Part shown: positions 41,731 to 58,454 of the stretch, piece after piece
How the letters are laid out: the number at the start of each line of letters is the position of its first letter
Position numbering within the stretch: the stretch's first letter is position 1
Source: Meridianimaribacter flavus
GTDB lineage: Bacteria > Bacteroidota > Bacteroidia > Flavobacteriales > Flavobacteriaceae
Direction of reading: 5' to 3'
Assembly: GCF_004366715.1 (NCBI RefSeq)
Contig: NZ_SOQZ01000004.1
Coordinates: 186,001 to 250,000, forward strand
Length of the DNA: 64,000 nucleotides
The notes under the pieces: model-generated
Seen by the model: the letters and a program-made list of their open reading frames with translations, nothing else
Databases searched by the model: none
What the model was told of the DNA's origin: nothing
Made by a program: the position numbers and the translations under genes

Positions 41731-41735
41731 CAATT

Positions 41736-42323
41736 TTAATTTTTATCAGTTACTTTATAACCCGTAGAATTAATTGCTTTCTCAATTTCTAATTCATTAG
41801 TTTTAGTTTGGTCATACTCAATGATTGCGTTACCATTCTTGTATGATGTTTTTGAGTTTACAATTCCGTTAAGTTTATTTACTTCGTGGTTTACGTGAGC
41901 TTCACAACTGGCACAAGTCATTCCACTTATTTTATACTCTGTTGTTTTGATATTTGATTTATCAACGATAACAATTTGTTTCTCTGAATTTGGATAAAAC
42001 ATACTTGAGTAGTATGGTAATGCCAACATCACTATTGCGAATACTGTTACAACTCCTAAAAAGGTTTTTGACTGAATAAATTTTGGTTTTTTATCCGTTT
42101 CACATTCACAGTCGATTTCTTTTTCTGGTTTTAATTTTTGATACCAAGCAAAGAGAAGAACTAATATAGTTAGCCCTATTAAGTAAGGTCTAAATGGTTC
42201 TATCCAAGAAAAAGTTGAAGCTACACCACTTGTACCTGCAATTAATGCCAAAACAGGTGTGATGCAACACAATGAAGCTGTGATTGCTGTTAGGATACTT
42301 GTAACCGCTAATTTATTTTTCAT
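41736..42323 (-). CDS. merTP: MerTP-type mercuric transport protein
   Basis: A 195-residue fusion of MerT and MerP. There are three hydrophobic helices; the first contains LCCITPVLAL with the vicinal cysteines that bind Hg(II). A CECE-bearing loop (KEIDCECETDKKP) follows, and the C-terminal HMA domain has GMTCASCEAHV. Such proteins import Hg(II) for reduction by MerA. Neither merA nor merR is present here, so the real substrate may differ. Its start overlaps the DUF3703 stop by 4 bases. Confidence 0.87.
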   Translation of the reverse strand: MKNKLAVTSILTAITASLCCITPVLALIAGTSGVASTFSWIEPFRPYLIGLTILVLLFAWYQKLKPEKEIDCECETDKKPKFIQSKTFLGVVTVFAIVMLALPYYSSMFYPNSEKQIVIVDKSNIKTTEYKISGMTCASCEAHVNHEVNKLNGIVNSKTSYKNGNAIIEYDQTKTNELEIEKAINSTGYKVTDKN

Positions 42324-42682
42324 TCTATATATAATAATTTTTCAATGTCATTTGGAATAGGCATACGTTTTAATGGTGGTACGTTTGCGCCACCTGTGTT
42401 ACCAAGAGGAACGTGATTTATAAATGATTTCCAGCCACCAACAAGCAATCTAATAATTTGACCGAATACTTCTTTAGTATCTTTTTGTCTAAATCCAAAC
42501 TTTAGCATTAGCCAATGTGAATAGGTATGCTCTATAGGATAAGATTGTCCTATTATATGACTACGTTCTAAATGATACCAAGCATTGCTAAAATGCTTAT
42601 TTTCTAAACAGAAACTGTATAGTTTTAATTCTTCGTTATACGCCTGTTTCAGATGTTTAGGTATTTTAGTATTAAACTTCAT
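42320..42682 (-). CDS. DUF3703 protein
   Basis: A 120-residue soluble protein starting at ATG (MKFNTKIPKHLKQAY); the TTG fourteen codons upstream is not credible. WYHLERSHIIGQSYPIEHTYSHWLML and NTGGANVPPLKRMPIP identify DUF3703. The family is a regular neighbour of MerTP and GDCCVxC genes in Bacteroidota. Its function is unknown; the histidines could bind metal. Confidence 0.84.
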   Translation of the reverse strand: MKFNTKIPKHLKQAYNEELKLYSFCLENKHFSNAWYHLERSHIIGQSYPIEHTYSHWLMLKFGFRQKDTKEVFGQIIRLLVGGWKSFINHVPLGNTGGANVPPLKRMPIPNDIEKLLYIE

Positions 42683-42738
42683 ATCCACTAATTTTGGATA
42701 AATGTACTTTAATAGTAAGTGCAATGGAAGTGCAATTA

Positions 42739-43152
42739 TTAGCCACTACACTTATCGCAAATACCTTTTACCACCAAATTTACATTCTCTGACACAAAAC
42801 CATCAGGTACTTTAATTTGCGGTATTTTATGTTCTGTTAGGCAAATCGTTTCATTGCAATTGTTACAATGGAAATGTAAGTGTAAATCGGTTTTTATATC
42901 ACAATTACATCCCTTTTCGCATAACGCATATTTTGTTATCCCTGTGCCATCGTCTATTTGATGTACAATATCATTTTCCTCAAAAGTTTTTATTGTTCTG
43001 TAAAGCGTTGTTCTATCTGCTTTTCCAAAAGCATTTTCAATATCACTTAAGGTTACTGCAACATTCTTTTCCGCAAGAAACTTATAAATTAGCAACCGCA
43101 TTGCTGTTACGCGAATATCTTTTGACTCTAATACTTGTTCTATCGTTTCCAT
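42739..43152 (-). CDS. Fur-family metal regulator
   Basis: A 137-residue regulator with an N-terminal winged helix (RVTAMRLLIYKFLAEKN, DRTTLYRTIKTFEENDIVHQI) and a C-terminal domain with HLHFHCNNCNETICL and CDKC. These provide the regulatory histidines and the structural CxxC pairs. It is Zur- or Fur-like, and the neighbours (CzcBCA, ZntA, MerTP) argue for zinc or another divalent metal. It starts 2 bases after the CzcB stop, so it is in the operon it may control. Confidence 0.87.
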   Translation of the reverse strand: METIEQVLESKDIRVTAMRLLIYKFLAEKNVAVTLSDIENAFGKADRTTLYRTIKTFEENDIVHQIDDGTGITKYALCEKGCNCDIKTDLHLHFHCNNCNETICLTEHKIPQIKVPDGFVSENVNLVVKGICDKCSG

Positions 43153-43154: not shown

Positions 43155-44360
43155 TTAATGAGCGTGTTCTGCTTCTCCTTTTTTCATTTCTGCTATAAGG
43201 TAATACGCATTATTGTAAGCAAATTTGGTATTAGCGGATACTTCTTCTGAAAAAGTAACTTCAATCCAATCTCCATCTTTTTCTCCAGTTATTACTTCTA
43301 CAGGCTTAAAAGCCCAAATTTCACCTTCTTTTTCTATCGTAAAAACAAAAAATCTATCGCCATCTTTTACAATGGCACTTTCAGGCAATGCCTTTGTTAA
43401 AGCATTATCGGTTTGTATTCTTCCTTGAATGTACATACCTGGAATGAGATTACCTGATTTATTTTCTATTTCGGCGTGCACGTGAACCGCTTTAGGGTTG
43501 TCTTCAAAGGTTTTGCTTACCGAGTAAATCTCGGCCGTAAGTTCTGCATCTGGTATGGATTGCACACTAAAAGTTACCTTTTGCCCTTGTTTTACTTTAT
43601 AGACATCTTTTTCAAACACCATTAAATCTGCGTGCACGTGGTGTGTGTTTACAATCTCGAACAGTTCAGTTTGTGGTTCTACATATTGCCCTGTCTTAAC
43701 CTCGACTTTTTGCACAAAACCTTCAATGGGGCTTCGTAGCGGAATTTGTTGAGCGATACTCCCATTACGAACTGATGCTGTATTGATATTCAAAATTTTC
43801 AGTTGAGCTGCCAAACCATTTACTAATGCAGTTGAACCTTTGTATTCTGCTTCTGCCTTTTGGAAATTAGCACCAGATCCTACTCCTGCATCGTATAATT
43901 TTTTTTGGCGTTCGTAATTTTTCTTTAAAAGTTCGCTATTGCTATAAGCGTTTAGGTAATCGGTCTGTAAGGCTATAATATTTGGATGTGACAAATAAGC
44001 CACTACCTGACCTTTTTCAACTTTATCGCCTTCAATGACTTTTATGAATGTTACATTTGCTCCTATAACAGAAGTAATAGCAGCTTCGTTTTGGGGTGGT
44101 ACTTCCAATGTGCCGTTTGCCTCAACATAGCCACTCATATTGCGTAAGCCCAAGGTGTCTATTTTCATTTTTAAGGCATCAAACTGTTGCTGATTAAGCG
44201 TTACTTCGCCTTCTTCGTGGTGTTCTTCATTTTCACTGGTTTGTTCTGTTTTATCGTGAGAAAGTCCATCATTTTCTGAATGGTCTTTTTTATTGCCACA
44301 AGACACCATAAAAAGTGCTGCAAAAATGACTGCGATGTATTTGTATGCTGTTTTTTTCAT
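43155..44360 (-). CDS. czcB: CzcB-type RND adaptor lipoprotein
   Basis: A 401-residue adaptor starting at ATG (MKKTAYKYIAVIFAALFMVSC), with a lipobox cysteine; an upstream GTG is not credible because it lies inside the previous gene. It has a His/Glu-rich segment (HHEEGE), lipoyl half-motifs, a coiled-coil hairpin (LLKKNYERQKKLYDAGVGSGANFQKAEAEYKG) and a beta-barrel domain. It bridges the CzcA part and the outer channel of the fused pump encoded directly upstream. Confidence 0.87.
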   Translation of the reverse strand: MKKTAYKYIAVIFAALFMVSCGNKKDHSENDGLSHDKTEQTSENEEHHEEGEVTLNQQQFDALKMKIDTLGLRNMSGYVEANGTLEVPPQNEAAITSVIGANVTFIKVIEGDKVEKGQVVAYLSHPNIIALQTDYLNAYSNSELLKKNYERQKKLYDAGVGSGANFQKAEAEYKGSTALVNGLAAQLKILNINTASVRNGSIAQQIPLRSPIEGFVQKVEVKTGQYVEPQTELFEIVNTHHVHADLMVFEKDVYKVKQGQKVTFSVQSIPDAELTAEIYSVSKTFEDNPKAVHVHAEIENKSGNLIPGMYIQGRIQTDNALTKALPESAIVKDGDRFFVFTIEKEGEIWAFKPVEVITGEKDGDWIEVTFSEEVSANTKFAYNNAYYLIAEMKKGEAEHAH

Positions 44361-44364
44361 AATG

Positions 44365-47300
44365 TTATTGATTGAAATATTGTAATTGAAATGCACTTTC
44401 TAAATAATTGAATAAAGCGTTTTGAGCTTCCAGTTCTGACTGTACGGCTTCTTTTACCAATTGTGTAAAGGTGGTATAATCTATTTCTCCTTCCTTATAC
44501 GCCAACAACGCTCCTGATTTCTGGTCTTTGGTTAACGGTAACACTTGTGTTTCGTAAAATTCCCAAGACAGTTTCCATTTTAAATAATTTTCTTTTGCTT
44601 GTGCATATTGTGATTGTAATTCTTGTTTTTTGAATAACAAATTACTTTCTGCAATAGCATTGTCAATTTTTGCTGATTTAATTCGGGCTTTGTTTGAACC
44701 TGACAGGAATGGAATGGAAATTCCTGCTTGATAGGTATAAAAACCTGAATTACCATTAACTTTTTGTAAACCACCCTGAAGGTTCAATTTCGGTAAATTA
44801 TCGGCTTTTGCCGCTCTCAATTCTGCTTCGGCGACATTCAATTGATTTTCTGAAACAGTAACCATTGGATGTTCATTTGTTGATAAGCTATCAGTTTCAA
44901 TCGTTGCAATGTTTTCCAATTCTTCTGATACAGTATAAATTTCGTCTTCAAATAACCAAAGATTTAACTGTTGTATGGCTATGAGGTAATCTCTGTATGC
45001 CTGTACTTTTTTATTTTGAATTTGAAACACTTGATTTTTTGCCGCTGAATACTCCAATTTAGAAATGGCTTCCACTTCAAAGTTCAGCGTAACTGCTTGT
45101 TCAAAATTACCATAGATGGAATCAAGCTCTTTGTACAACTGAAAGTTTCTCATAGACTGATAACATTTTGCCCACGCTTTTTTCACTTCCAGTTCTACCT
45201 CCAATTCAGATAATTGCAATGCTTTTTGAGACAACTCAATGCGTTGTTGTTGCAGTTTTCGTTTTGCTCCGATTCCAAACACATCCATATTTGATTGTCC
45301 AACACCGACCGTTGTGTAGATTCCTGTTCCATCTTTCACTTCTTCACCTCCTGTAAAGATTTGAGTAGAACCAAAATCATATGCTGTGGATTTTAGGTTT
45401 TCTTGTTTGGTAACTTCCAATTGTTTTTGCTTCAATAGTGGATAGTTCTTTTTAGATAAAGCAACAGCTTCGTTTAAAGTGATTTTAGACAAGGTATCCG
45501 TGATTTGTTGTGCATTACTTCGAGTTGAAAACACAAACATTAAAACCAGTACTGCGGTTGCACTCACTACTTTTTTGTTCGGCTTTAACCTAAAGGTCTT
45601 ATTCTCTACCCAATGATATAAAATAGGCAATACAAATAAAGTGAGTAATGTAGAAGTCAATAATCCACCAATAACTACCGTTGCCAACGGACGCTGTACT
45701 TCTGCACCTGCCGAAGCTGAAACAGCCATTGGTAAAAAGCCCAACACATCTGTAAATGCTGTTAGCATAATAGGGCGTATTCTTCGTTTTGTGCCTTCCA
45801 AAATCCGTTCTTTTAAATTGGTAACACCTTCTTCTTTCAATTCATTTAAGCCACTTATCATTACCAAGCCGTTTAATACGGCCACGCCAAACAATACAAT
45901 AAAACCAACACCTGCCGAAATGCTAAAGGGCATATCTCGTAACCACAAAGCTACCACACCGCCAATGGTAGCCATTGGAATAGCAATGTATATCATTAAG
46001 GTTTGTGGTACTGATTTTAAAGCAAAGTATATCAGTACGAAAATAAGTAGTAAGGCAATAGGTACTACGGTTTGCAAGCGGTTACTGGCACGTTCTAAAT
46101 TTTCAAAAGCACCGCCATAGCGTACAAAATAACCAGAGGGTAATTCTAATTGTGCATCTAATTTGGTTTTAATTTCTTCTACCAACGATTTTACATCACG
46201 TCCTCTTACATTGATGCCTACATAGGTTCTTCTGTTGGTATTGTCCCTACTTATTTGCATAGGTCCCGCTTTATAAGATATATCAGCTACTTCACGAAGT
46301 GGAATTTGTGCCCCTGAAGGCAAATTGATAAACAGATTTTGAATATCTGATATATCCTTACGGTTGTGTTGATTTAAACGAACTACCAAATCAAACCGCT
46401 TTTCGCCTTCAAAAATAACGCCTGCATTTCCTCCTGCAAATGCCGATTGCACCATTTTGTTAAGTGTGTTGATTTGCAGTCCATATTGAGCCAACTTATC
46501 TCTACTGTAGTTTATAGTCATTTGAGGCAGACCTGTTGTGGCTTCGGCTTTCATATCACCAATACCCGGTGTTCCTGCAATTATTTTTGTTATTTCTTCT
46601 GCCTTTTGAGATAAGACCTCGATGTCTTCGCCGTACAACTTAATGGCAATATCTTCCCGCACTCCTTCAAGTAACTCGTTAAAACGCATTTCTATAGGTT
46701 GGGTAAATTCATAATTGACTCCAGGAATAATTTCAACAGCTTCTTTCATTGCTTCAATAAGCTCGTCTTTTGTCTCTACCGTAGTCCATTCACTTTTAGG
46801 TTTCAGTATAACGAATACATCTGCTAAATCCATAGGCATTGGATCGGTGGGTATTTCGGCCACACCAATACGGCTCACAATTTTTTCGACTTCGGGAAAT
46901 TTTGACTTTACAATTTGCTCTATTTTAGTAGTGGTTTCTACTGTTTCAGATAACGAGCTACCCGGTTTTAAAATGGCGTGGAATGCAATGTCGCCTTCAT
47001 CGAGTTGTGGGATAAATTCACCTCCCATTCGGGTAAACATAAAGACTGTTACCGCAAATAGTGCCACTGCAATTCCCACAATCCATTTTCCTTTTAAGAG
47101 TGCTTTTTCCAATAAAGGTTTGTACTTATCTTCAACCCAATGCACAAATTTATCACCATGAGATAATTTGTTGTTTTTTGGTGTTCTCAATACCAAAGCA
47201 GACATCATTGGTACATAGGTAAGACACAAAACCATAGCTCCAATCATTGCGAAAATAAAGGTCAATGCCATTGGTTTGAACATTTTCCCTTCAATACCTT

Positions 47301-48699
47301 GTAAGGCTAAAATGGGAAGAAACACAATAAGTATAATCAACTGACCGAAAAAGGCTGCATTCATCATTCTTTTGGAAGCCGATGCTGCAACCTCATCACG
47401 CTCTTTGGCTGTTATTTTTTTCTTTTTAAGTACTTGGGAAGCGATAAGGAATACCGTAGACTCCACAATAATTACTGCACCATCTACAATAATTCCGAAG
47501 TCTATAGCCCCTAAACTCATCAGGTTTGCCCATACATTAAATACATTCATCAAAATAAATGCAAACAGTAAGGATAGTGGAATGGTTGAAGCTACAATTA
47601 AGCCACCTCGCCAATTACCCAACAAGAAAATGAGAACGAAAATAACGATTAAAGCCCCTTCAATAAGGTTTGTAGCAACCGTTGATGTCGTTTCTCTAAT
47701 TAACTTACTTCTGTCTAAAAGTGGTTCAATAACAACTCCTTCTGGCAGGGATTTTTGTATTTGAACCATACGCTCTTTAACATTGGCAATCACATCATTT
47801 GAATTTGCACCTTTAAGCATCATTACCAAGCCACCGACAACTTCTCCTTCGCCATCTTGGGTTAATGCTCCGTAACGAATGGCTGAACCAAATTGAACCG
47901 TTGCTATATCACCAATGGTAATAGGTACATTATTAATGGTTTTAACCGTAATTTTTTTAATGTCGTCTAAACTTCTTGCCAATCCTTCCCCTCGTATAAA
48001 ATTAGCCTGATGGTTTTTTTCGATATAAGCACCACCCGTATTTTGGTTATTGGCTTCGAGGGCTTCAAATACATCTGTAATGGTAATCCCAATAGATTTA
48101 AGCTCGTTAGGGTCTACAGCAACTTCATATTGTTTTATTTTACCACCAATAGCGTTGACCTCGACAACACCAGGAACCATTGCCATTTGGCGTTGTACAA
48201 TCCAGTCTTGCATTGTACGCACATCTGAAATGGAATATTTATCTTGATATTCTGGTTTTACTTTTAATGTGTATTGGTATATCTCTCCCAGACCTGTGGA
48301 AATAGGTCCCATTGTAGGTTCTCCAAAACCCGCAGGAATTTGTTCTTTTACTTCGTTGAGTTTTTCTGCTACCAATTGCCTTGGAAGATATGTACCCATA
48401 TCATCATCAAATACAATGGTGACAACTGACAGACCAAAGCGTGAAATTGAGCGAATTTCTTCCACATTGGGCAAATTGCTCATTGCCACTTCAACAGGGT
48501 AGGTTATTATCTGCTCAATATCTTCTGTACCTAAATTTGGTGATTGCGTTATTACCTGAACTTGGTTATTGGTAATATCGGGAACGGCATCTATGGGTAC
48601 TTTGGTCATACTCCAGATACCTGCTCCAATAATGGTAAGCGTTAGCAAACCAATAATGAATTTGTTATTGATTGAAAAATCAATGATTTTATTGATCAT
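44365..48699 (-). CDS. czcA: CzcA RND pump fused to its TolC-type channel
   Basis: A 1444-residue protein. Residues 1 to about 1035 are a complete heavy-metal RND pump. TM4 has LGAIDFGIIVDGAVIIVES, the HME1 pattern for divalent Zn/Co/Cd. Residues about 1039-1063 look like a second signal peptide (basic KPNKK, hydrophobic VVSATAVLVLMFVF, then SNA before QQ). Residues 1064-1444 are an outer-membrane efflux protein of the CzcC/TolC type. Inner- and outer-membrane parts of one chain cannot both insert without cleavage, so processing at SNA-Q is likely. The adaptor gene follows 4 bases downstream. Confidence 0.92.
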   Translation of the reverse strand: MINKIIDFSINNKFIIGLLTLTIIGAGIWSMTKVPIDAVPDITNNQVQVITQSPNLGTEDIEQIITYPVEVAMSNLPNVEEIRSISRFGLSVVTIVFDDDMGTYLPRQLVAEKLNEVKEQIPAGFGEPTMGPISTGLGEIYQYTLKVKPEYQDKYSISDVRTMQDWIVQRQMAMVPGVVEVNAIGGKIKQYEVAVDPNELKSIGITITDVFEALEANNQNTGGAYIEKNHQANFIRGEGLARSLDDIKKITVKTINNVPITIGDIATVQFGSAIRYGALTQDGEGEVVGGLVMMLKGANSNDVIANVKERMVQIQKSLPEGVVIEPLLDRSKLIRETTSTVATNLIEGALIVIFVLIFLLGNWRGGLIVASTIPLSLLFAFILMNVFNVWANLMSLGAIDFGIIVDGAVIIVESTVFLIASQVLKKKKITAKERDEVAASASKRMMNAAFFGQLIILIVFLPILALQGIEGKMFKPMALTFIFAMIGAMVLCLTYVPMMSALVLRTPKNNKLSHGDKFVHWVEDKYKPLLEKALLKGKWIVGIAVALFAVTVFMFTRMGGEFIPQLDEGDIAFHAILKPGSSLSETVETTTKIEQIVKSKFPEVEKIVSRIGVAEIPTDPMPMDLADVFVILKPKSEWTTVETKDELIEAMKEAVEIIPGVNYEFTQPIEMRFNELLEGVREDIAIKLYGEDIEVLSQKAEEITKIIAGTPGIGDMKAEATTGLPQMTINYSRDKLAQYGLQINTLNKMVQSAFAGGNAGVIFEGEKRFDLVVRLNQHNRKDISDIQNLFINLPSGAQIPLREVADISYKAGPMQISRDNTNRRTYVGINVRGRDVKSLVEEIKTKLDAQLELPSGYFVRYGGAFENLERASNRLQTVVPIALLLIFVLIYFALKSVPQTLMIYIAIPMATIGGVVALWLRDMPFSISAGVGFIVLFGVAVLNGLVMISGLNELKEEGVTNLKERILEGTKRRIRPIMLTAFTDVLGFLPMAVSASAGAEVQRPLATVVIGGLLTSTLLTLFVLPILYHWVENKTFRLKPNKKVVSATAVLVLMFVFSTRSNAQQITDTLSKITLNEAVALSKKNYPLLKQKQLEVTKQENLKSTAYDFGSTQIFTGGEEVKDGTGIYTTVGVGQSNMDVFGIGAKRKLQQQRIELSQKALQLSELEVELEVKKAWAKCYQSMRNFQLYKELDSIYGNFEQAVTLNFEVEAISKLEYSAAKNQVFQIQNKKVQAYRDYLIAIQQLNLWLFEDEIYTVSEELENIATIETDSLSTNEHPMVTVSENQLNVAEAELRAAKADNLPKLNLQGGLQKVNGNSGFYTYQAGISIPFLSGSNKARIKSAKIDNAIAESNLLFKKQELQSQYAQAKENYLKWKLSWEFYETQVLPLTKDQKSGALLAYKEGEIDYTTFTQLVKEAVQSELEAQNALFNYLESAFQLQYFNQ

Positions 48700-48792
48700 A
48701 AGAATGGTTATAATGAATTTATAAAAGAGATAAGCAACCTATTTTAAATGGGTTACTTGAATTTATAAGACACCTACATACGCAGGTATTCA

Positions 48793-49104
48793 TTAAACCT
48801 GTGGTGGCTGTAAAAGGGTAGTATTGAAGTCTTTTTCAAGACCATCAAAATAATAGAATAATTGAGTTGGAATAACAGTATTAGATAAACTGTAATCTAC
48901 AACATTAAAATGTGTAACGTGAATATGACAACAGTGGCATTGGCAAAATGGTGAGCATAGATCTGCTCCTTGATGTTGATGGTCGTTGTCTAACGCTTGA
49001 GAAATTTCGGTTTTAACCTCATTATCTGGTATACCATTATCTTCACAAGGCACTAAATTGAGCGCAAAGATATAAATAGATAATATGAGTGCTAAAACTT
49101 TCAT
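48793..49104 (-). CDS. DUF6660 small secreted protein
   Basis: A 103-residue protein with a signal peptide (ILSIYIFALNLVPC), then the cysteine/histidine cluster GADLCSPFCQCHCCHIHVTHF and a hydrophobic tail, as in DUF6660. Such proteins recur beside Czc-type genes in Bacteroidota and probably bind metal in the periplasm. It is 93 bases upstream of the pump gene and may be the first gene of the metal operon. Confidence 0.8.
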   Translation of the reverse strand: MKVLALILSIYIFALNLVPCEDNGIPDNEVKTEISQALDNDHQHQGADLCSPFCQCHCCHIHVTHFNVVDYSLSNTVIPTQLFYYFDGLEKDFNTTLLQPPQV

Positions 49105-49109
49105 TGAGA

Positions 49110-49117
49110 CAAAGATA
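49110..49117 (-). promoter_or_regulatory. -7 box TATCTTTG for DUF6660/czc operon
   Basis: On the minus strand TATCTTTG fits TAnnTTTG and lies 5 bases before the ATG at 49104, again a short leader. A TTG lies upstream on this strand, though at a 14-base spacing that is short for the consensus. Confidence 0.4.
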
Positions 49118-49150
49118 AAAATATTTTAATGCAATGGTGTTGCAAAGTAT

Positions 49151-51262
49151 TTATAAAAACCACAACGTATCTTTAGCGTCCTCTGGAACACCGTTTTCGA
49201 AACGAGGTGCTATTTGGGCTACCATTTCGGGATATTTTATGGTAATTGGTACATTTTGTTGGCGTAAGGATTTCCAATACAATCTGCTGAACTGATATAC
49301 TTGGGTTAACAATTCTTCAATCACCTCAACATCTTCAAAAGCGTCTTCATCCGGACTGCTTATTTTTATCTTTATTGGAAATGGATAACCATCTGTATCT
49401 GCATAATAAATATCGTTTGGGTAACGTGCATTATTAAAAAGCAAAAATTTATTTACTCCTATGCGAATGTATGTACCGCTTACAGGCATTAATTTATTAC
49501 CCCAATTTACATCGTAAGCAATCATATCTTCTGCTTCGGTTTTATTGATATTCAGAATATATAAAGGCACTCCTAATTTTAGTTTGTTCATACCATCAAT
49601 AATTGGTTGCAGTTCTTCGTAGCTCATTTCTTTATAAAAATGAATGACTACTTTATCTGCTTGGGCTACTGATGTAAAATCTCTAATTGCTTTTAATATG
49701 CTACCTGCTAATAGTTTTGTTTCGTTTTGGTTGAAGTATTCAAAATTTCTAAACAATCCATTATTTTGAAAACTAAATGCACTGGCAATATACCTTCTGT
49801 TTTCCCCTTGATTGGTAAATGCTCCTACTCCAATTACCAATTCTTTTTTATCAGTTACTGCCAGCTTCCAAGGTGCACCACCTAATTTAGCGTGAATAGC
49901 CAATGCCATATTTTGTAATGAAAACTGAAAATTGTATTGGTCTTGGATGTTTACAATCATTTTTTCGTAATCGACCACTTGGGTTACAATGCCTTCATTT
50001 AAAAACAGTTCTTTAATTCGGATGTAAATTTCCCTATCGTCAGGATCTGGTGTAAACTTATCGAAAGGACTGATGTAAAAGGCTGCATACTTTACATTGT
50101 CGTGGTCAAAAGTTAAACTTTCAAGCTGTTCAACTATTTCAGGTATTGGGTCGTTTTCGTTAGTAAACTCAATAAAATGTTCTCTTGATGCTGTAGCCTT
50201 TATATTTACATAAGCCTCCAATCCTTTGTAATAGTTCTTTTCAGTATTTACACCTTCTTTTAAATTTTGATAGAAAGACAGCACAGAATCTTTATGTGAG
50301 GTATGGCAAATGAAAAATATCTTGATATTTTGATTGCTTGGGCGTCTGTAAGGGTTTAGAATGTTCATTGCCTTTTTAGGCACTAAATGGGTTCTTTTAT
50401 TACCATATTGGTCTTTACCAAACTCTAATAAGCCCAAATTGGGGTTAATGTGATTAATACGATTGCCAGGAACATCTATAAATGCATCTTGCTTAAACGG
50501 AAATAAAGCCTTAAATTCTTCTGTAAACAAGTAGTTTTTAGCAAAAGTAGTGATGAGTGCTACGTATTTTTGGTATCTGTTCTTTGGTCTGTCGGGTTCT
50601 TCAATAGGTATGTTTAAAGCTCTTGCCAATTGTAAATTGAATATTGGGAAGGCTTGACTAAAATCTATGTTATTGTAAAAGTCTTCTTTGTTCTCTGTAT
50701 CAAGGTTCATTTGGTAATTGAAGGTTTTTTGACCATACACACAACGCTTAATATACTCTGTTTCCTCAATATCCTTAACTGATTTTGTGAGGACTTTTGA
50801 CGTACCATCATACGATACCACAAGTTCTGGTAAGTCTGTTAGTGTTGCAAACAGTATTTTGAATGAGAATTTATAGTATAAATTATAGTCTGCTGTATTT
50901 CCTTTTTTTGAAGGCATCCAAACCTGTACATCACGTACAAAGTTTTTGACCACGATGTAACCCTTTTCTAAAAAGTAGGTTTTTAATTGGTGCTTCAGGA
51001 ATTGTTTGTATATGCGTAGTTCTTTGTCCTTTACCAAGTTTATTTTGATACTTGGGGCATTGGGTATTTCTTGGGTAAATGTGGTAAAAATATGCTCTAA
51101 ACCTGATAAATCTGTATCTGGAAACGCCTCTTTTATCTGCTTTGAAAACTTTGATCTATGGATGGGATGGCTACCCTCAATATCTTCTAACGATAGATAT
51201 ATGACAGGTGTACTACTTGGCCATTTAAAATTGAGTATGTTGGTTTTTAAGTGTTCTTGCAT
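49151..51262 (-). CDS. Prokaryotic Argonaute with inactive PIWI domain
   Basis: A 703-residue Argonaute. Residues 1-300 resemble the N/L1/L2 part, with no convincing PAZ. The MID domain (about 305-460) keeps a plausible 5'-phosphate pocket: Y413, K417, Q428 and K459 in YIRIK, TQVV and AKLGGAPW. The PIWI domain (461-690) has VIGVGAF at 476-482, where the first catalytic Asp would be G480. VVIHFYKE (538-545) has no Asp at the usual RDG site, and YPEM (677-680) replaces the last catalytic segment. The chain ends LWFL, like other pAgos whose C terminus enters the MID pocket. It should bind guides but not cut. It lies 46 bases after the HEPN gene. Confidence 0.88.
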   Translation of the reverse strand: MQEHLKTNILNFKWPSSTPVIYLSLEDIEGSHPIHRSKFSKQIKEAFPDTDLSGLEHIFTTFTQEIPNAPSIKINLVKDKELRIYKQFLKHQLKTYFLEKGYIVVKNFVRDVQVWMPSKKGNTADYNLYYKFSFKILFATLTDLPELVVSYDGTSKVLTKSVKDIEETEYIKRCVYGQKTFNYQMNLDTENKEDFYNNIDFSQAFPIFNLQLARALNIPIEEPDRPKNRYQKYVALITTFAKNYLFTEEFKALFPFKQDAFIDVPGNRINHINPNLGLLEFGKDQYGNKRTHLVPKKAMNILNPYRRPSNQNIKIFFICHTSHKDSVLSFYQNLKEGVNTEKNYYKGLEAYVNIKATASREHFIEFTNENDPIPEIVEQLESLTFDHDNVKYAAFYISPFDKFTPDPDDREIYIRIKELFLNEGIVTQVVDYEKMIVNIQDQYNFQFSLQNMALAIHAKLGGAPWKLAVTDKKELVIGVGAFTNQGENRRYIASAFSFQNNGLFRNFEYFNQNETKLLAGSILKAIRDFTSVAQADKVVIHFYKEMSYEELQPIIDGMNKLKLGVPLYILNINKTEAEDMIAYDVNWGNKLMPVSGTYIRIGVNKFLLFNNARYPNDIYYADTDGYPFPIKIKISSPDEDAFEDVEVIEELLTQVYQFSRLYWKSLRQQNVPITIKYPEMVAQIAPRFENGVPEDAKDTLWFL

Positions 51263-51308
51263 AGATAATGGGGTGTTTTTGTATTTACATATAGTGAGTG
51301 ATTATAGG

Positions 51309-52016
51309 TTATAAATAGACATCGTACTTTTCAAGTTTTTCAAATAGACCTAATATATTTTCAATGATTTCATTAATAAAATTCTTGTTGTCAAATACCA
51401 AGTTGTAATAAACAATATCCCTATCTTTCTCCAATAAAATATATCTTCCTTTAGAAAAGGATTTTAGAGTATTATATTTTCTAATTTCATCACCAAAGAC
51501 TGTACTGTTATTGTGTACAATACAATTTCTCACTCTCCTTAAATTATTTATATATGACCAATGAGGTTCTAATTCTTTAATATCAACTTTAGCAGCTCTT
51601 GTTAAAAACAACTTTGCTTTTTCAAATTCACTATTACCACGTAAATCATCCAAACCAAACTCTTTATTATGCATTAAACAATAAGAATTACACACGTCTT
51701 GAATAGTCCGTTCTATAAAAGAAAACAATTGTGTAATCATTGAAGCCCTAAAACTTTGCACAAAATCCCTATCAATTTCGATTACTTTATCAACTAAAGT
51801 ATCCTGTAAATGATTTAAATATTCATCCGCATACTTTTTAGGTTCTGCTTCAATTTTCTTCATTATTTCAGTATATTCCTTTTCGTGATTAGTCAAGGAA
51901 CTATCAAAATGGTCTTCGACAAACTTTGCATAATTGCGAAAGGTTTGTAACTCCAAGTCTAAAAAGAAAATATTGTTATCTTTTCTGAAATTTGAAAGTG
52001 CGTTTATTCTTGACAT
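51309..52016 (-). CDS. HEPN-domain protein, probable RNase effector
   Basis: A 235-residue, largely helical, soluble protein. The HEPN active motif R163-N-C-I-V-H168 (an R-N-x3-H form) follows the helix ELEPHWSYINNLRRV, and an acidic position in SFIERTIQDV on the preceding helix (E102) fits the family. Such HEPN proteins are RNases in abortive-infection and toxin systems. Its ATG overlaps the XRE stop (TAATG), a sign of coupled translation. The Argonaute gene follows 46 bases on. I infer it is the effector arm of the Argonaute unit; the specific HEPN subfamily is not certain. Confidence 0.75.
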   Translation of the reverse strand: MSRINALSNFRKDNNIFFLDLELQTFRNYAKFVEDHFDSSLTNHEKEYTEIMKKIEAEPKKYADEYLNHLQDTLVDKVIEIDRDFVQSFRASMITQLFSFIERTIQDVCNSYCLMHNKEFGLDDLRGNSEFEKAKLFLTRAAKVDIKELEPHWSYINNLRRVRNCIVHNNSTVFGDEIRKYNTLKSFSKGRYILLEKDRDIVYYNLVFDNKNFINEIIENILGLFEKLEKYDVYL

Positions 52017-52315
52017 TATTTACTATTCTTTTCAATCTTACTAATTTTTTCTTCAGCTATTTTGAGGATTTCCGTACTGTCCTTTTCGTTTTTTATCATT
52101 TGTACAATCTGTTCGGACATCCAAAGCTTAATTAATTTGTTCTCATCTTCTTTTAATTCTTTTGCAAATGCTATTACCTGCTCTCGTCTTGCCAAACGGT
52201 TTCCTCGTTCAATCTTGCTTAAATAAGCCACATCCATATTGACGTTTGCAGCCATTTCCCTTAATAACAAATTGCGCTTTTCGCGCAATGAGCGTATGTA
52301 TTCTCCAAACTCCAT
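52016..52315 (-). CDS. XRE-type helix-turn-helix regulator
   Basis: A 99-residue protein with an N-terminal Cro/C1 helix-turn-helix (about 5-60: LREKRNLLLREMAANVNMDVAYLSKIERGNR) and a charged helical tail. It is the first gene of the HEPN-Argonaute unit and is preceded directly by an inverted repeat, so autorepression of the unit is likely. It could also act as antitoxin-like partner of the HEPN protein. Confidence 0.85.
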   Translation of the reverse strand: MEFGEYIRSLREKRNLLLREMAANVNMDVAYLSKIERGNRLARREQVIAFAKELKEDENKLIKLWMSEQIVQMIKNEKDSTEILKIAEEKISKIEKNSK

Positions 52316-52324
52316 AATAGCATT

Positions 52325-52352
52325 AATTAGACTTGTCAGATTTTGTCTAATT
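52325..52352. promoter_or_regulatory. Probable operator of the HEPN-Argonaute unit
   Basis: AATTAGAC (52325-52332) and GTCTAATT (52345-52352) are perfect 8-base inverted arms with a 12-base spacer, 9 bases before the XRE start. The spacing suits a dimeric XRE repressor. Confidence 0.6.
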
Positions 52353-52426
52353 TAAGAAAAGGAAGCTAAAGGAAAACAAAAAGATATAAACAGTTATTAA
52401 CAGAAAGTGAGGAAGTTAAGGATTTA

Positions 52427-52458
52427 AGGAAACACATACGCAAATTCCTTTGTTTCCT
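52427..52458 (-). terminator. Possible hairpin after the DUF3987 gene
   Basis: AGGAAAC (52427-52433) and GTTTCCT (52452-52458) are inverted 7-base arms just past the DUF3987 stop. There is no strong T-run, so termination is tentative. Confidence 0.3.
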
Positions 52459-52466
52459 CAATTTCC

Positions 52467-54221
52467 TTATAATGATTTTGCAGGATTTGAATAGCTATTA
52501 TGTGCTTCTCTATGTATTAATCCTGCTTCTACAAATTTGGTAATGTAGCCTTCTGCCGTTTTATGTGGGATGTTTTGTTTGGTGGCTAAATCTAAATAGT
52601 CTTGTCTGCTAAAATGCTTGGGTAGGCTTTCTAAAAACCGTTCTTTACGATTTAGGCGCTTTACCGCTTTTTGTTCAATAGGTAAATCGTTGAACACTTT
52701 ACTGCTGTGCTTTACTAAAATAGAAATAATAGTTAGCGCATTTTGGAAATCGACATCCTCACATTCTTTTACTTGATTAACATCACCATCATCCATAATG
52801 CGAAATGCTGTAAATAACATCATTAATCGAAATGCTATTAAGCCTAATCGTCTAATGGTTGCAATATACTCTTCCGGTTGTAAGTTGATGTATTTGGTTT
52901 GTAAGGATTCAAAAAACGTATTGAATTGCTGTTGTTGAGTTTCGGATAAACGTATTTCAATCTCCGGGTTATTCTTTAGTGTTTTATACAAGTCTAAAAA
53001 CTCATTACCTAATTGTGAATAGTAATCATCTAACCCAACATTTTTGTTGCTTGAAAATACATTTTTCCAAGTAGGCTTTATATTCATATAATAGAACATA
53101 AAACGACTGAATAAACCATTTTCTGCATTGGGAATCAAGGTTGCTACTTGCTTGGGTGTACCTGACAACACTGTTGACAAACAGGGTTTTTCAATATCCA
53201 CATATTCTCTATCTGTTCTACGATAATAGCTTATTGTTTCGTGATGGAAAGCTTTACGAAAACCATCAGAATAATTACCGTAATCGCTTTTAAATGCTTG
53301 TGCCAAAGTATCTCCTTCTGTTTCAAAGATTAATCCTTTGCCTTCATTATCTGATATTAATTGATAGACACCCGTAACACTATTATTAGCAGGTATGAAC
53401 AACATTCTTTCGGGTGGCTTACCGGGTTTCTCTAAATTTTCATCTTTACCTTTATTCATATTATAGGTTGCCATTTCTGTATTAAATTGTTGCTTTAGCA
53501 CTTTAGCTTGTTCTCGTTTTAACTTGTGTACAGGATCTACCAAATTTTTAATTTGGTTAAGCCTGCCTTTACCTGCAGATGCAGATGCGGTAACAAATAA
53601 ATATAAATTAGCAAAAACTTTACGTTGGTCGTAAATACCAAAGAGTTTAGGAAAACAGGCACTAAAAGCCGTTAAAGCACCCAATAGCAAAATATCTTTT
53701 TCCTCTTGACTGCTCGCAGGATTTACAACTTGTTGTAAAAACTTCGGTAAGGTATTAAATACCTCATCTGGTATTGTTGGCATTGCTTGCTCTATTGCAT
53801 CAACAACAGTTGCAACATTTGTTGCAACCTCGTTGTTATTTGGTTGCTTCATTGGTCTTATACCTGCCTGATGTGCATAATGGTAAAACGTTGCAATGGT
53901 AATGCCGTGCCCTTTGGCATTTAGGCATTTATTGAACTGTTCGTCACATTCTTTTGAATCATAACCTACATAGTTTTTGCTTATTCTGTGAAAATAATCT
54001 CTTCCTGTTTCTCCATATTCTTCAGCAAAAGCAAATCCTAAATCTCTCCAAGTTGCATAATCCTCTGTGATGTCTGTACCTGATTGCTCAATTGCTGAAA
54101 TATAGGTTTCAATGTCGTTATCAGCAACAGCAACAACATTAGTTGTTGCGTTGTTGCTTATTGGTTGCGATTGCTCTTCTGGAACTTCCAACCATTCTTT
54201 CGGATTAAATATTTTTGTCAT
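52467..54221 (-). CDS. DUF3987 replication-type protein with PriCT-2-like head
   Basis: A 584-residue cytoplasmic protein. Residues about 35-120 resemble PriCT-2 (ITEDYATWRDLGFAFAEEYGE, ISKNYVGYDSKECDEQFNKC). The DUF3987 domain (about 150-510) has a Walker A-like loop TASASAGKGRLNQ and a Walker B-like part (FETEGDTLAQAF). A small winged-helix tail follows. Such proteins pair with primase-like partners in Bacteroidota mobile elements and probably unwind DNA or aid replication of the excised form. It overlaps the BT4734-like gene by 4 bases. Confidence 0.84.
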   Translation of the reverse strand: MTKIFNPKEWLEVPEEQSQPISNNATTNVVAVADNDIETYISAIEQSGTDITEDYATWRDLGFAFAEEYGETGRDYFHRISKNYVGYDSKECDEQFNKCLNAKGHGITIATFYHYAHQAGIRPMKQPNNNEVATNVATVVDAIEQAMPTIPDEVFNTLPKFLQQVVNPASSQEEKDILLLGALTAFSACFPKLFGIYDQRKVFANLYLFVTASASAGKGRLNQIKNLVDPVHKLKREQAKVLKQQFNTEMATYNMNKGKDENLEKPGKPPERMLFIPANNSVTGVYQLISDNEGKGLIFETEGDTLAQAFKSDYGNYSDGFRKAFHHETISYYRRTDREYVDIEKPCLSTVLSGTPKQVATLIPNAENGLFSRFMFYYMNIKPTWKNVFSSNKNVGLDDYYSQLGNEFLDLYKTLKNNPEIEIRLSETQQQQFNTFFESLQTKYINLQPEEYIATIRRLGLIAFRLMMLFTAFRIMDDGDVNQVKECEDVDFQNALTIISILVKHSSKVFNDLPIEQKAVKRLNRKERFLESLPKHFSRQDYLDLATKQNIPHKTAEGYITKFVEAGLIHREAHNSYSNPAKSL

Positions 54222-55126
54222 AATGCTTGGTGTCTTTTATGTAAAAAGGCTGTTGGGTCGTATGGTAAAAAACACGCTCTGGAAACGTCTTTACCTGACT
54301 GGTCAACCTCTATGTTATAAGTATGCTTAATGTAATTGGCTACTGCCGTGAAATACTCTGAATGTGTTACTTCTGAAACATCTATCCTGATAATCCATTT
54401 TAGGCCATCGCCAGATGGTGATGTGAATAGCATTTCGGTTTCAAAGTATTCATCGTTTAGTAATTGCTTTTTTAACTCTTGAAGATTATCTAAATGGTCG
54501 AAATCAATAGTTAATAGATTGGAATGCTGTAACAAATTACTATCATTTCGCTTTTCAAACGTTCCTGAAAAGGTGACGTAATCAAAGCGATTCGCTTTGA
54601 ATTTACGTGCTTCTTTTACATCGGTTATTGCTCTTAAATCTTCAGTAATTCTTTTGTATTTATCACTTGTGATTAATGCAAATACTTGATGTAATCGCAT
54701 AGTTTCCGCAGGAAACACATTGCGAACTGGTGCTTTGAAAAAGCTACAATACCCATACCAGGTATCGTCTGGACCATTCAGCCAATCTAATTCGCTTTTT
54801 TCCTTGACTTCTAAATTTAGGTGCAACTCTTGGTTAATCTTATGCAACAATTCTTCTTCATCGGTTATTCTAAAATGGTATTGTGCAAAATCAAATACAT
54901 CTCCGTTAAAAGTTTTTAGTTCTGTATCTCGATGTGTTGCCATTACTCCATCAATATGAATCCGTAAGGTTTCTTTACCTCCATTAAAAGGGTTTCGGGT
55001 TATCCCGCAGTCTCTTCCTTTTACAGAAAGGACTGTTGTTTCAGGATAATACTGTCTTAACACGTAGGCATAAATCTTTATGCCGTAATGTGTTTTGTCT
55101 AAAATTGCCTCTCTACTTACTTCCAT
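54218..55126 (-). CDS. BT4734/BF3469-type primase-like protein
   Basis: A 302-residue protein starting at MEVSREAIL; a further ATG upstream overlaps the helix-turn-helix gene by more. The first part (KGRDCGITRNPFNGGKETLRIH, FDFAQYHF) and the second (LLTIDFDHLDN, then FTSPSGDGLKWIIRIDV) match the BT4734-like family. The DFD and SxSGDG motifs recall archaeo-eukaryotic primase folds. It acts with the DUF3987 protein in element replication, by inference. Its stop overlaps the DUF3987 start (ATGA). Confidence 0.82.
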   Translation of the reverse strand: MEVSREAILDKTHYGIKIYAYVLRQYYPETTVLSVKGRDCGITRNPFNGGKETLRIHIDGVMATHRDTELKTFNGDVFDFAQYHFRITDEEELLHKINQELHLNLEVKEKSELDWLNGPDDTWYGYCSFFKAPVRNVFPAETMRLHQVFALITSDKYKRITEDLRAITDVKEARKFKANRFDYVTFSGTFEKRNDSNLLQHSNLLTIDFDHLDNLQELKKQLLNDEYFETEMLFTSPSGDGLKWIIRIDVSEVTHSEYFTAVANYIKHTYNIEVDQSGKDVSRACFLPYDPTAFLHKRHQAL

Positions 55127-55409
55127 CTTGCTTGAAATTATGGTTGTAATAGTTATCTTGAAGCAATTGCTCCACATCGGAAACCTTGTAATAAAACTTA
55201 CCCTTTACCTTGCTATAAGGTAGTGTTCCGTTATCTCTAAAAGTCTGTAAGGTTCGCTTACTGATGTGTAAGGTCTGCAATACGTCTTGGTTGTCTATCC
55301 ACGTATCTTTTAATACTTCTGCTCTCGAATGTCGTAACAACTCGATACGTGCTTTTAAGTCCTTTATTTCTTGTGAGAGTGCCAAGAGTAAATCGATTAT
55401 TTCAGTCAT
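55113..55409 (-). CDS. Helix-turn-helix protein (HTH_17/excisionase type)
   Basis: A 98-residue protein with a helical head and an HTH_17 domain (about 40-90: QDVLQTLHISKRTLQTFRDNGTLPYSKVKGKFYYK). It overlaps the upstream HTH gene by 4 bases and the primase-like gene by 14. Probably a regulator or excision factor of the element. Confidence 0.83.
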   Translation of the reverse strand: MTEIIDLLLALSQEIKDLKARIELLRHSRAEVLKDTWIDNQDVLQTLHISKRTLQTFRDNGTLPYSKVKGKFYYKVSDVEQLLQDNYYNHNFKQDGSK

Positions 55410-55705
55410 AACTTCACCGCTCCTTTCTTAATTAAGTAATCGGCAGCTTGCTGTTCGATTTCATCTTGTGAATCAACACGGTTAGTTAATAACCATTGCT
55501 CCAGTTCAACTCTGTTGAAATAAATCTTCTTACCATTCGGTTTGTAATGCGGAATGGTTCCGGTACTCGTAAGCTTGTATAAATGGGATTGTGACAATTC
55601 CAAAAATTTACAGGCTTCGTTAAAGCTCAATACGTTTTTTACAATAATGTTTCTGTCTAAAACGTGTGCTTCGATAATTTTAAGACGTTCTAATATTTCG
55701 TCCAT
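55406..55705 (-). CDS. Helix-turn-helix protein (HTH_17 type), first of the replication operon
   Basis: A 99-residue protein with an HTH_17 domain (about 28-75: SFNEACKFLELSQSHLYKLTSTGTIPHYKPNGKKIYF) resembling excisionase-type DNA-binding folds. It is the first gene of the HTH-HTH-primase-DUF3987 run, all overlapping, and has a palindrome 29 bases upstream of its ATG. It is likely to control the run. Confidence 0.83.
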   Translation of the reverse strand: MDEILERLKIIEAHVLDRNIIVKNVLSFNEACKFLELSQSHLYKLTSTGTIPHYKPNGKKIYFNRVELEQWLLTNRVDSQDEIEQQAADYLIKKGAVKL

Positions 55706-55733
55706 AACTAATTAATTTTAAGTAATAGAAATG

Positions 55734-55751
55734 GACATCTGGCCAAATGTC
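55734..55751. promoter_or_regulatory. 18-base near-palindrome, candidate operator
   Basis: GACATCTGGCCAAATGTC reads the same on both strands except for one pair. It lies 29 bases upstream of the HTH gene at 55406, within its promoter zone. Confidence 0.5.
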
Positions 55752-55832
55752 ATTCTTGGTTTTCAAGAACAGGACAAAGGTTTAAAATCAATGATTTTTA
55801 AAGTGTGAGAGTTTTATATGAGTGTGAGAATA

Positions 55833-55859
55833 CAATGAGATTTCTAAATAATCTCATTG
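55833..55859. terminator. Hairpin terminator after the 315-residue gene
   Basis: CAATGAGATT (55833-55842) and AATCTCATTG (55850-55859) are perfect 10-base arms with a 7-base loop, starting 4 bases after the stop at 55864. The A/T-rich flanks include a T-run on the plus strand. Confidence 0.7.
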
Positions 55860-55863
55860 TTTT

Positions 55864-56811
55864 TTATTGTATTTGTTTGAAGATATTATCAATGGTTTCC
55901 TTTTTTAGAGGTGCTTTACTTTTGGTATAAAGATTTTGAGCTGTCAATGGTTTACCCAATTTTGTATAAAATAAACCCGTAGATTCAATTAAAGTGGGTG
56001 TCATATTTTTGAAATGTGGCTGCAACCGTTTAACAACATATTTAAACTCGGTTGTTTTACAATCTAAATAGATTTTCTTTTGAAAACCTTTAAAATCTTT
56101 AGCCACTAATAAATTATGCAAGTCTTTAACATCTGTTTTTGCATCAAGTAAATCAATACTTAATTGAAGCCTGCTCAATATTTTAGACAACCATTCAGAA
56201 TCATCTTTTAAATATCCAAATGAGGTTTTTTGTTTGCTTTTCGGTTTAGATGGCTTTTTAACTACCTCTTTTTTATCTACTTCTAATTTTACAAATACTG
56301 AAGTATCAAAATCAGTATCATTAAAATACTTTTCTGCTATTTCTTGAATTGAGAATAACCCAGTATCTGAAAATTGTCCGTATTGCTCTTGTAATTCGAT
56401 GTACAGGCGAATTGCCGATGCTTTTAAGTAATTGATGATATAATCGGCATCATTGCCTAAATCGTTACTTATAGACTGCTTTTTAATGTAGGTGGCAATA
56501 TCCTTTAAGTACTTATTGAACTTATTAAATTGTACGGTATAGTTATACTTGTTTTCGGGTTCCGTAGCATCTTTTGGGAATTGGGATTTTAATGCTGCTA
56601 ATTCAGTTTCAGTGTCATTTGAAATCAGCTTAAAGTAATATTCTTTTTTACTGTTTAAAGGTCTTTTAAAGTTTACTTTAAAAACCGCATTATCAGCTTT
56701 TGGTGTTTCATTTAATTCAGAGTTCAGAATGTTAAATTCTCGTTCTGATCTATCGTCTCTATGTAATCCGTTGGTAATCGACACCAAACTTGCAAACACA
56801 TTTCCTTTCAT
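55864..56811 (-). CDS. Unrecognised element protein, coupled to integrase
   Basis: A 315-residue soluble protein that I do not recognise. It is rich in lysine and helical. A KPSKPKSKQK linker lies near residue 190 and separates an N-terminal and a C-terminal part. There is no signal peptide, membrane helix or obvious catalytic motif. Its ATG overlaps the integrase stop by 1 base (TAATG). Proteins in this position occur in Bacteroidota integrative elements, so a role in integration or regulation is possible but unproven. Confidence 0.75.
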   Translation of the reverse strand: MKGNVFASLVSITNGLHRDDRSEREFNILNSELNETPKADNAVFKVNFKRPLNSKKEYYFKLISNDTETELAALKSQFPKDATEPENKYNYTVQFNKFNKYLKDIATYIKKQSISNDLGNDADYIINYLKASAIRLYIELQEQYGQFSDTGLFSIQEIAEKYFNDTDFDTSVFVKLEVDKKEVVKKPSKPKSKQKTSFGYLKDDSEWLSKILSRLQLSIDLLDAKTDVKDLHNLLVAKDFKGFQKKIYLDCKTTEFKYVVKRLQPHFKNMTPTLIESTGLFYTKLGKPLTAQNLYTKSKAPLKKETIDNIFKQIQ

Positions 56812-57905
56812 TATAAATCCAATTGAATACGGTTAGCAGCTTCTTTCTTTTTATCATCAATTACCTTTGCATAAATCTGTGTTGTTCTCAATTCTTTATG
56901 TCCTAATAATTTTGATACTGTGTAAATATCTGTACCCAAAGTTAATTGTAAAGTGGCATAGGTATGACGCGCACAATGAAAAGTAATATTTTTAGTAATA
57001 CCTGCTTTTAACATCCATTGTTGCAATTTTAGATTTGACCAAGCACTATAATGTAAGCCTTCAAAAACTTTTGCTTCGGGTTTTCCTGCTTCACCTAATA
57101 ATTCTCTTGCTTGTTCTGATATTGGCAAAGTTTCTGCTCCTTTGGTTTTCTTTTGTCTGAAACGTATGTAATAACCCATTTCTTTAGAGTGTTGGATTTC
57201 TGACCACAACAATTTTTCAATATCTGACCAACGTAATCCGGTAAGGGCTGAAAATATAAACGCATTTTTTAATAATGGTAATTCACATTCTGTGTTAACT
57301 GCTTTTTGTAATTCATCAAGCGTTAAAAATTCTCGTTGAGGTTCTCCTTGTTTGAAATAATCCACACCATTAGCAGGATTAACTTTTAAAATACCATCCT
57401 TAACCGCTTGCTTTAAAGCTGCGCAAAACTTACCATAGTATGAATATTTAGAGTTTTGAGACAATTTTTTACCTGCTCTTGCCATAGCATCTTTGTCTAA
57501 ATACTCTTTGAAACGCTCAACAAATGATTTATCCAAATCTTGAAAACTAACATCTGTAGGACAAAAGGTTTTCAAATGTTTTAGCATACTGTTCCAATTC
57601 CCATAGTTGCCAGAGCTGGTATTTTTCTTTTCCGCTAAAGCTGTAACATAAGTAATAAAACTACCCTTTAATTTCTCTATATCCTGAAAGCCATAAATAC
57701 CATTTTGTATTTCTATTTGGCGTTGTGCGCAAATGGTTTCTGCTAATTGCTTGGTTTTCTTGTTAACCTCTCTTTCGGTTTTAGTTTTAGGATTAGGCGT
57801 AAGGTATAAGCGTAAATACTCGGTTTTGCGTTTTCCTTTATGATAGTAATCTAAATACAGACTTATTTTATCATTCTTTTTGCGTTGTCTTAATGTTACT
57901 TTCAT
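56811..57905 (-). CDS. int: Tyrosine-recombinase integrase
   Basis: A 364-residue integrase. The SAM-like core-binding domain spans about 100-190 and the catalytic domain about 200-360. The catalytic set is visible: R in LTGLRWSDIEKLL, K in QKKTKGA, HxxR in HCARHTYATLQL, H in LLGHKELRTTQ and Y in IYAKVID. An N-terminal arm-binding domain of the usual Bacteroidota type comes first. It lies about 0.6 kb from the mnmE-side repeat and should catalyse integration into the mnmE 3' end and excision. Confidence 0.94.
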   Translation of the reverse strand: MKVTLRQRKKNDKISLYLDYYHKGKRKTEYLRLYLTPNPKTKTEREVNKKTKQLAETICAQRQIEIQNGIYGFQDIEKLKGSFITYVTALAEKKNTSSGNYGNWNSMLKHLKTFCPTDVSFQDLDKSFVERFKEYLDKDAMARAGKKLSQNSKYSYYGKFCAALKQAVKDGILKVNPANGVDYFKQGEPQREFLTLDELQKAVNTECELPLLKNAFIFSALTGLRWSDIEKLLWSEIQHSKEMGYYIRFRQKKTKGAETLPISEQARELLGEAGKPEAKVFEGLHYSAWSNLKLQQWMLKAGITKNITFHCARHTYATLQLTLGTDIYTVSKLLGHKELRTTQIYAKVIDDKKKEAANRIQLDL

Positions 57906-57911
57906 AGGGTG

Positions 57912-58277
57912 CTAATTAAAGAGGTTTTCTATTTGCCATCTGGCTACAATACGTTTTCTTCCAAAAGGGACTGCTTTTAAACGTCCTTGTTGAATCATTC
58001 TTTGAATGGTCCATCTACTTACACCAATCAATTGTGAGGCTTCAGTAACGCTTAAAAAATCTTTATTATTTACCATGTTGAGGTTTGGAACTTGAACAGC
58101 TTCCTTTTGCTGCTGCATATCCTTTGTGAGAGTAGCTTGTACTTTTTCTTTACGCTTACGTGCCTTATAGGCCTTTTTAGCGCAAGTATCACCACAGTAT
58201 TTAGTTACTGTTGTGCGTGCTGTAAAAGCATTACCGCAATGTTTACAGATTTTTGGGATGTATAAATTACTGCTCAT
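57912..58277 (-). CDS. Zinc-finger plus helix-turn-helix protein, excisionase-like
   Basis: A 121-residue protein starting at MSSNLYIPKICKHCG; the ATG eighteen codons earlier lies in the repeat-rich control region. A CxxC...CxxxC zinc ribbon (CKHCG and YCGDTCAKKAYKARKRK) is followed by an HTH_17 domain (SVTEASQLIGVSRWTIQRMIQQGRLKAVPFGRKRI). It may act as recombination directionality factor or as regulator of the integrase gene 6 bases downstream. It is the outermost gene on this side of the element. Confidence 0.84.
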   Translation of the reverse strand: MSSNLYIPKICKHCGNAFTARTTVTKYCGDTCAKKAYKARKRKEKVQATLTKDMQQQKEAVQVPNLNMVNNKDFLSVTEASQLIGVSRWTIQRMIQQGRLKAVPFGRKRIVARWQIENLFN

Positions 58278-58280
58278 AAA

Positions 58281-58326
58281 TGGTGCTTTATGTAGCGTTA
58301 TGGTGCAACGTGGGGCAATATGGTGC
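58281..58326. promoter_or_regulatory. Phased TGGTGC repeats before the excisionase-like gene
   Basis: TGGTGC occurs at 58281, 58301 and 58321, with TGGGGC at 58311, so three consecutive copies are spaced exactly 10 bases. This helical phasing just upstream of the start at 58277 suggests cooperative protein binding at the integrase promoter. Confidence 0.5.
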
Positions 58327-58355
58327 ATCATTTCGCCAATCTTTTAGCCAACAGA

Positions 58356-58454
58356 TTTGGGCAACAAATCCATATTTAAGGCAACAGATATACAACAAAT
58401 TTAGTTAAAAAAGAGCAAAAAAGCAACAAAAAAAAGAAGATAAAAACTCATAAA
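58356..58454. repeat. Candidate integrase arm-type sites, mnmE end
   Basis: TTTGGGCAACAAAT (58356-58369) and AAAAACTCATAAA (58442-58454) match the copies inside the other terminus. Related GCAACA units occur at 58380-58389 (GGCAACAGAT), 58391-58400 (TACAACAAAT) and 58423-58430 (GCAACAAA). Confidence 0.5.

Follow-up and report, generated by a model that had tools for sequence, protein, structure and literature searches.

Absence of the DEDX catalytic residues is the rule in long-B prokaryotic Argonautes (pAgos) (PMC6299218). Downstream of RsAgo, the long-B pAgo of Rhodobacter sphaeroides (PDB 5awh, 6d8p), a nuclease gene is predicted (PMC10620215), and in the BPAN/BPAS/BPAM systems, such as EcAgo and its nuclease, an inactive long-B Ago is accompanied by one fixed effector encoded immediately downstream (PMC10620215). 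In the og_54 (VirE_N) subclade of long-B pAgos, a VirE_N gene lies 2–8 genes upstream of the pAgo, and its function was left open (PMC10620215). RND pumps have been found in 14% of long-B operons, with a role given as unknown (PMC6299218).

We analysed a stretch of 64,000 nucleotides from Meridianimaribacter flavus (hereafter the window); all of its genes named below are on the minus strand. The window encodes an inactive long-B Ago, as in the BPAN/BPAS/BPAM systems. What is new is its setting: the Argonaute is fixed in a copper-resistance mobile element, where it stands at the end of a slot in which defence genes are exchanged.

The Argonaute gene (49151–51262) starts with ATG and is an intact ORF for 703 aa, the length that an earlier sequence-only reading had given. 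The ORF scored 43 bits against Pfam Piwi (cut-off 28.9), and residues 2–703 matched the PADLOC pAgo model PDLC02385 with 938 bits. Column calls were made from an alignment of 53 Argonautes that included TtAgo. In this alignment Y413 (codon 50024–50026), K417 (50012–50014), Q428 (49979–49981) and K459 (49886–49888) all fall in columns of the MID 5′-phosphate pocket and give the canonical pattern YK..Q..K. The TtAgo tetrad D478, E512, D546 and D660 corresponds to G480 (49823–49825), K516 (49715–49717), Y543 (49634–49636) and E679 in YPEM (49226–49228). A further alignment of 29 sequences, with relatives 39–89% identical, showed no variation at Y413, K417, Q428, K459, G480, E679 or the C-terminal LWFL, and next to none at Y543. 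The sequence-only reading was therefore right that the pocket is kept and that the DEDX residues are lost, with YPEM at the fourth position, and the LWFL end that it pointed out is common to all 29 sequences. Judged by these residues, the protein, like all its relatives, would keep a guide-holding pocket without the residues for cutting. Since the missing DEDX is the rule in long-B pAgos, it is to be expected here.

Lost catalytic residues could also be the mark of a decaying, non-functional Argonaute. We calculated dN/dS against 15 relatives and obtained 0.03–0.11, which indicates strong purifying selection and therefore not decay. The ORFs are intact across many genera and the pocket is invariant; decay is thus already contradicted, and we regard it as scarcely credible.

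In a tree of MID-PIWI sequences, the Argonaute fell in a clade of Bacteroidota (100/99) that belongs to the long-B side (100/98), with the long-A pAgos (100/97) and the short pAgos (100/100) placed separately. RsAgo is not among the tree sequences and was compared through structure and profile only; its plasmid is pRSPA01. The best structural match to the AlphaFold model of the Argonaute (pLDDT 83.5, pTM 0.80) was RsAgo, with Z 29.3 over 605 residues (model 4–702). Alignments with RsAgo comprised 605–624 residues and ran over residues 3–703, that is, the whole protein, whereas chains of SPARTA, SPARSA, SPARDA and AfAgo aligned only from about residue 261–277 on. The first 260 residues are therefore an ordinary long-pAgo N-lobe and not an APAZ fusion, and the architecture, read from the model aligned with RsAgo, is N-L1-PAZ-L2-MID-PIWI. 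Judged by length alone (703 versus 777 aa), the protein is consistent with a shortened PAZ* that lacks the second subdomain. A profile of the clade searched against the PDB found AfAgo, RsAgo and EcAgo, with SPARSA and eukaryotic Piwi weaker and no TtAgo-type pAgo among the clear matches. The similarity of the Argonaute to EcAgo was detectable in sequence as well (E 2e-13).

The sequence-only reading had seen no evident PAZ and had offered two classes, a long-B-type form or an APAZ-like region fused to MID-PIWI. The first agrees with the tree, the YK motif in MID, the absent tetrad, the full-length match to RsAgo and the profile matches to RsAgo and EcAgo. The alternative of a short pAgo, or of a fusion of APAZ-like type, could draw on the PAZ that was not evident at first and on the tetrad, which short pAgos lack too. 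It is already contradicted by the separate place of the short pAgos in the tree, by a MID motif that is YK and not HK or RK, and by an RsAgo match that begins at residue 3–4, so that the N-terminal part is not unusual; there is hardly any chance that it holds. Fold, alignment and tree all show that the protein is not a MID-PIWI-only form clustering with the short pAgos, and in the tree it does not group with TtAgo and other active long-A pAgos. Neither of the results named beforehand as speaking against the reading, acidic catalytic positions or a place inside active long-A, was obtained. Thus the Argonaute is a full-length, RsAgo-like long-B pAgo without the catalytic tetrad. It shares with RsAgo the fold over the whole length, the YK pocket, the glycine at the first catalytic position and the lack of the tetrad, at an identity of about 15%. 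Unlike RsAgo with its predicted downstream nuclease gene (PMC10620215), the clade of this Argonaute has no fixed partner.

The gene for the Argonaute belongs to an integrative element of 36.8 kb, whose insertion target is mnmE (trmE; 58495–59934) at its 3′ end. The 15-bp attachment-site repeat TTACTTCCCGATACA occurs in exactly two copies in the 3.2-Mb genome. One (58495–58509, plus strand) is at the 3′ end of mnmE and covers its stop codon; the other, an exact repeat (21714–21728, plus strand), is at the far end of the element. Read from mnmE, the element encodes an HTH_17 protein between attachment site and integrase (57912–58331), a tyrosine integrase (56811–57905), the DUF6617 element core protein (55864–56811), two HTH_17 proteins (55113–55409 and 55406–55705, together 55113–55705) and a BT4734/VirE_N-type primase N-terminal domain (PF08800; 54218–55177). 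Then come the element replication protein with PriCT_2 and DUF3987 (52467–54221), which served as the element marker in our genome survey, and a 99-aa XRE/HTH regulator (52016–52315), the first gene after this primase, which overlaps the following HEPN gene by 1 bp. The HEPN gene, the Argonaute and DUF6660 complete the order. Downstream of the Argonaute the metal-efflux cargo starts with DUF6660, a CusA/CzcA RND pump and a 413-aa adaptor-like protein (43155–49104), and the remaining copper/heavy-metal resistance cargo (24232–43152) includes a P-type ATPase, a multicopper oxidase and a second CusA; such genes occupy about 25 kb after DUF6660. The integrase adjoins mnmE in 22 of the 23 related loci with enough sequence. 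A search for an empty insertion site in relatives had no success, owing to poor conservation of the flanking gene on the right-hand side. A search of positions 48600–58600 against Rfam gave no match. The 1444-aa RND pump (44365–48699) matches CusA/CzcA over residues 1–1040 and a TolC-type outer-membrane protein over residues 1274–1386, and is predicted to combine an inner-membrane pump and an outer-membrane factor in one chain.

We explored the linkage between Argonaute and element in 299 genomes of the family. An Argonaute of the window's clade is present in 26 of them and the element primase, at 60% identity or more, in 25; the Argonaute was found in 24 of these 25, and in the sole primase-only genome the contig breaks off about 3.6 kb beyond the primase on the downstream side. 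The co-occurrence was very strong (Fisher's test, p = 5e-32), a p-value that is nominal because the genomes are related. The other two Argonaute genomes have a primase of 38% identity about 6 kb upstream, so a DUF3987 primase lies upstream of the Argonaute on the same strand in 26 of 26 clade-positive genomes. Elements with primases below 60% identity (L195–L200) have no Argonaute. We also collected 75 loci with a full-length or nearly full-length Argonaute, the window and the named genomes included. The primase was seen upstream within view in 59 of them, at distances from 245 bp to 8.8 kb, and the association extends to Bacteroidales, Cyclobacteriaceae and Chitinophagaceae. Thus the Argonaute is a fixed backbone gene of the metal-resistance element. 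Viral contigs contained no relative, and plasmids contained only distant long-B relatives (<27% identity).

In the deepest branches of the clade (L248, L252 and L253) the element core was not seen within view; the linkage is therefore not ancestral to the whole clade. Directly upstream of the Argonaute in L250, L252 and L253, which belong to a deeper branch, is a 431–460-aa protein with a helix-turn-helix-like C terminus, with sequence similarity detected between two of the three (E 1e-15). It might act as a partner or regulate a mobile element.

That the Argonaute has a fixed place in the backbone, and that it and the primase each occur with the other, could also mean that it serves the element itself, for example by controlling its copies or keeping a second one out, and not general defence. 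Genomes G140 and G225 each carry two such elements, presumably at different insertion sites, so that any exclusion between elements is not absolute. The two Argonautes share 39% identity in one of these genomes and 62% in the other; they are diverged and not nearly identical, which would suit such a role. Such two-element genomes are just two in number, however, the slot next to the Argonaute is occupied by genes of general defence, and plasmids at large are acted on by related pAgos (PMC10620215). We consider a role confined to the element very unlikely.

The PF08800 gene, of VirE_N type, lies four genes upstream of the Argonaute, within the 2–8 genes that define og_54, and is likely og_54 itself. 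The clade is thus probably the og_54 long-B subclade (PMC10620215). In this setting og_54 appears to be the replication gene of the element and not an effector. This points to both og_54 and the RND pumps as parts of the element, the former its replication module and the latter its cargo. If the Argonaute belongs to the backbone of a metal-resistance element, two unexplained reports are accounted for, that of long-B pAgos with og_54 and that of RND pumps next to long-B pAgos.

Between the primase and the Argonaute, 39 gene families were found in the 59 loci, 21 of them once. Genes of at least 90 aa in this interval are all co-directional in 56 of the 59 loci, with a median gap of 29 bp, and XRE is alone in eight. 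The recurrent families are type IIG restriction-modification (RM), ApeA, AbiD, a ThsB-like TIR protein, a 355-aa membrane-type protein and HEPN; slot neighbours belong to known defence families. Argonautes 96–98% identical to that of the window have unrelated neighbours, namely AbiD in L065 and the membrane-type protein in L066. The gene downstream is DUF6660 (36 loci), HEPN (11) or one of many others. Thus the primase, XRE and exchangeable defence genes make up a slot that resembles an operon; the Argonaute bounds it on the 3′ side, and the metal-efflux cargo is next. The defence hotspots of P2 phages and P4 satellites (PMC9122126) likewise have high-turnover defence genes between two conserved anchors; unlike there, one anchor here is a defence-type protein, the Argonaute.

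In the BPAN/BPAS/BPAM systems the effector immediately downstream is fixed, whereas here the neighbours differ between nearly identical Argonautes. No fixed effector gene immediately downstream was found across the related loci, a comparison that covers Argonaute neighbourhoods, so that an effector encoded elsewhere would escape it. The proposal that the protein has no effector therefore stands as far as a fixed gene of this kind is meant; it does not describe an Argonaute whose gene is lined up with exchangeable defence genes much as in an operon. The Argonaute of L074 is 96% identical to that of the window in its first 200 residues and 82.5% identical in the remainder, and it has a nearly identical HEPN gene upstream. 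Therefore cassettes may be exchanged through recombination within the Argonaute gene.

It is conceivable that the Argonaute is a general guide-directed sensor which switches on whichever effector is its current neighbour (HEPN, AbiD, ApeA or the membrane protein). Such an arrangement of one sensor and exchangeable effectors would differ from the one-to-one pairing of described pAgo systems, and we think it quite unlikely. Co-adaptation between the Argonaute and its upstream neighbour was weak: the gain of within- over between-group identity was at most 0.03, uncorrected. Because nearly identical Argonautes naturally occur with different neighbours or with none, the choice of effector can be tested.

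In the window the exchangeable cassette is a 235-aa putative RNase of HEPN type (51309–52016), with an invariant RNxxVH motif (R163–H168). Its helical model is nearest to HepT toxins and the HEPN domain of Csm6, at Z of only 7–8; Pfam HEPN was below the cut-off and Foldseek gave no significant match. Motif and model thus suggest, but do not prove, a HEPN fold and RNase identity. The gene is flush with the Argonaute in all 18 loci that have both (five upstream, 13 downstream), and 11 of the 13 HEPN places at 32% identity or more in the 299 genomes are flush with an Argonaute. This contact, with the invariant motif, would suit a dedicated two-gene system in which the Argonaute senses invader DNA and activates the HEPN RNase, so that the infected cell is halted. 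However, two close copies have no adjoining Argonaute: one 89% identical to that of the window in L192 (G129), and one of the downstream type (98%), with its DUF4238 companion, in L193 (G162). As the gene is thus also found in two other elements without Argonaute, HEPN as an obligate partner was rejected. In addition, the Argonautes 96–98% identical adjoin AbiD, ApeA or the membrane protein instead, and some have no such neighbour. A dedicated pair is therefore unlikely, and the best reading of the HEPN gene is that of a defence cassette in its own right.

A DUF4238 protein (L086:12863–13963 and similar) lies 3–12 bp after the downstream-type HEPN gene in most loci. The two probably form a two-gene defence cassette, as both have moved into the Argonaute-free L193. 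In L192, a different integrative element, the same HEPN gene occurs together with metal-efflux cargo and a type IIG RM gene but with no Argonaute; cargo therefore moves between element families.

We favour, with moderate confidence, a reading in which this dead RsAgo-like long-B Ago, fixed in an element that targets mnmE, protects element and host by guide-directed binding of invading DNA. It builds on what was observed here, namely the long-B identity, the intact pocket, the missing tetrad, the element ends, the linkage and the turnover of neighbours. A single transcript would start before XRE. The Argonaute would most likely load a short 5′-phosphorylated guide, probably RNA directed at a DNA target as in RsAgo and EcAgo (PMC10620215), and could then bind invading DNA. 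Because it cannot cut, it would either block the invader directly or activate a toxic effector, possibly whichever adjoins it at the time, and element and host would gain against rival plasmids, phages or elements. Against this reading, characterised long-B pAgos mostly work with one fixed effector (PMC10620215).

The slot between primase and Argonaute is also a place to seek new defence genes. A 107-aa protein with no Pfam or PADLOC match (L064:9445–9765 and 11 other loci) often lies there with the type IIG RM gene on one side and the Argonaute on the other, commonly 29–31 bp before the latter.
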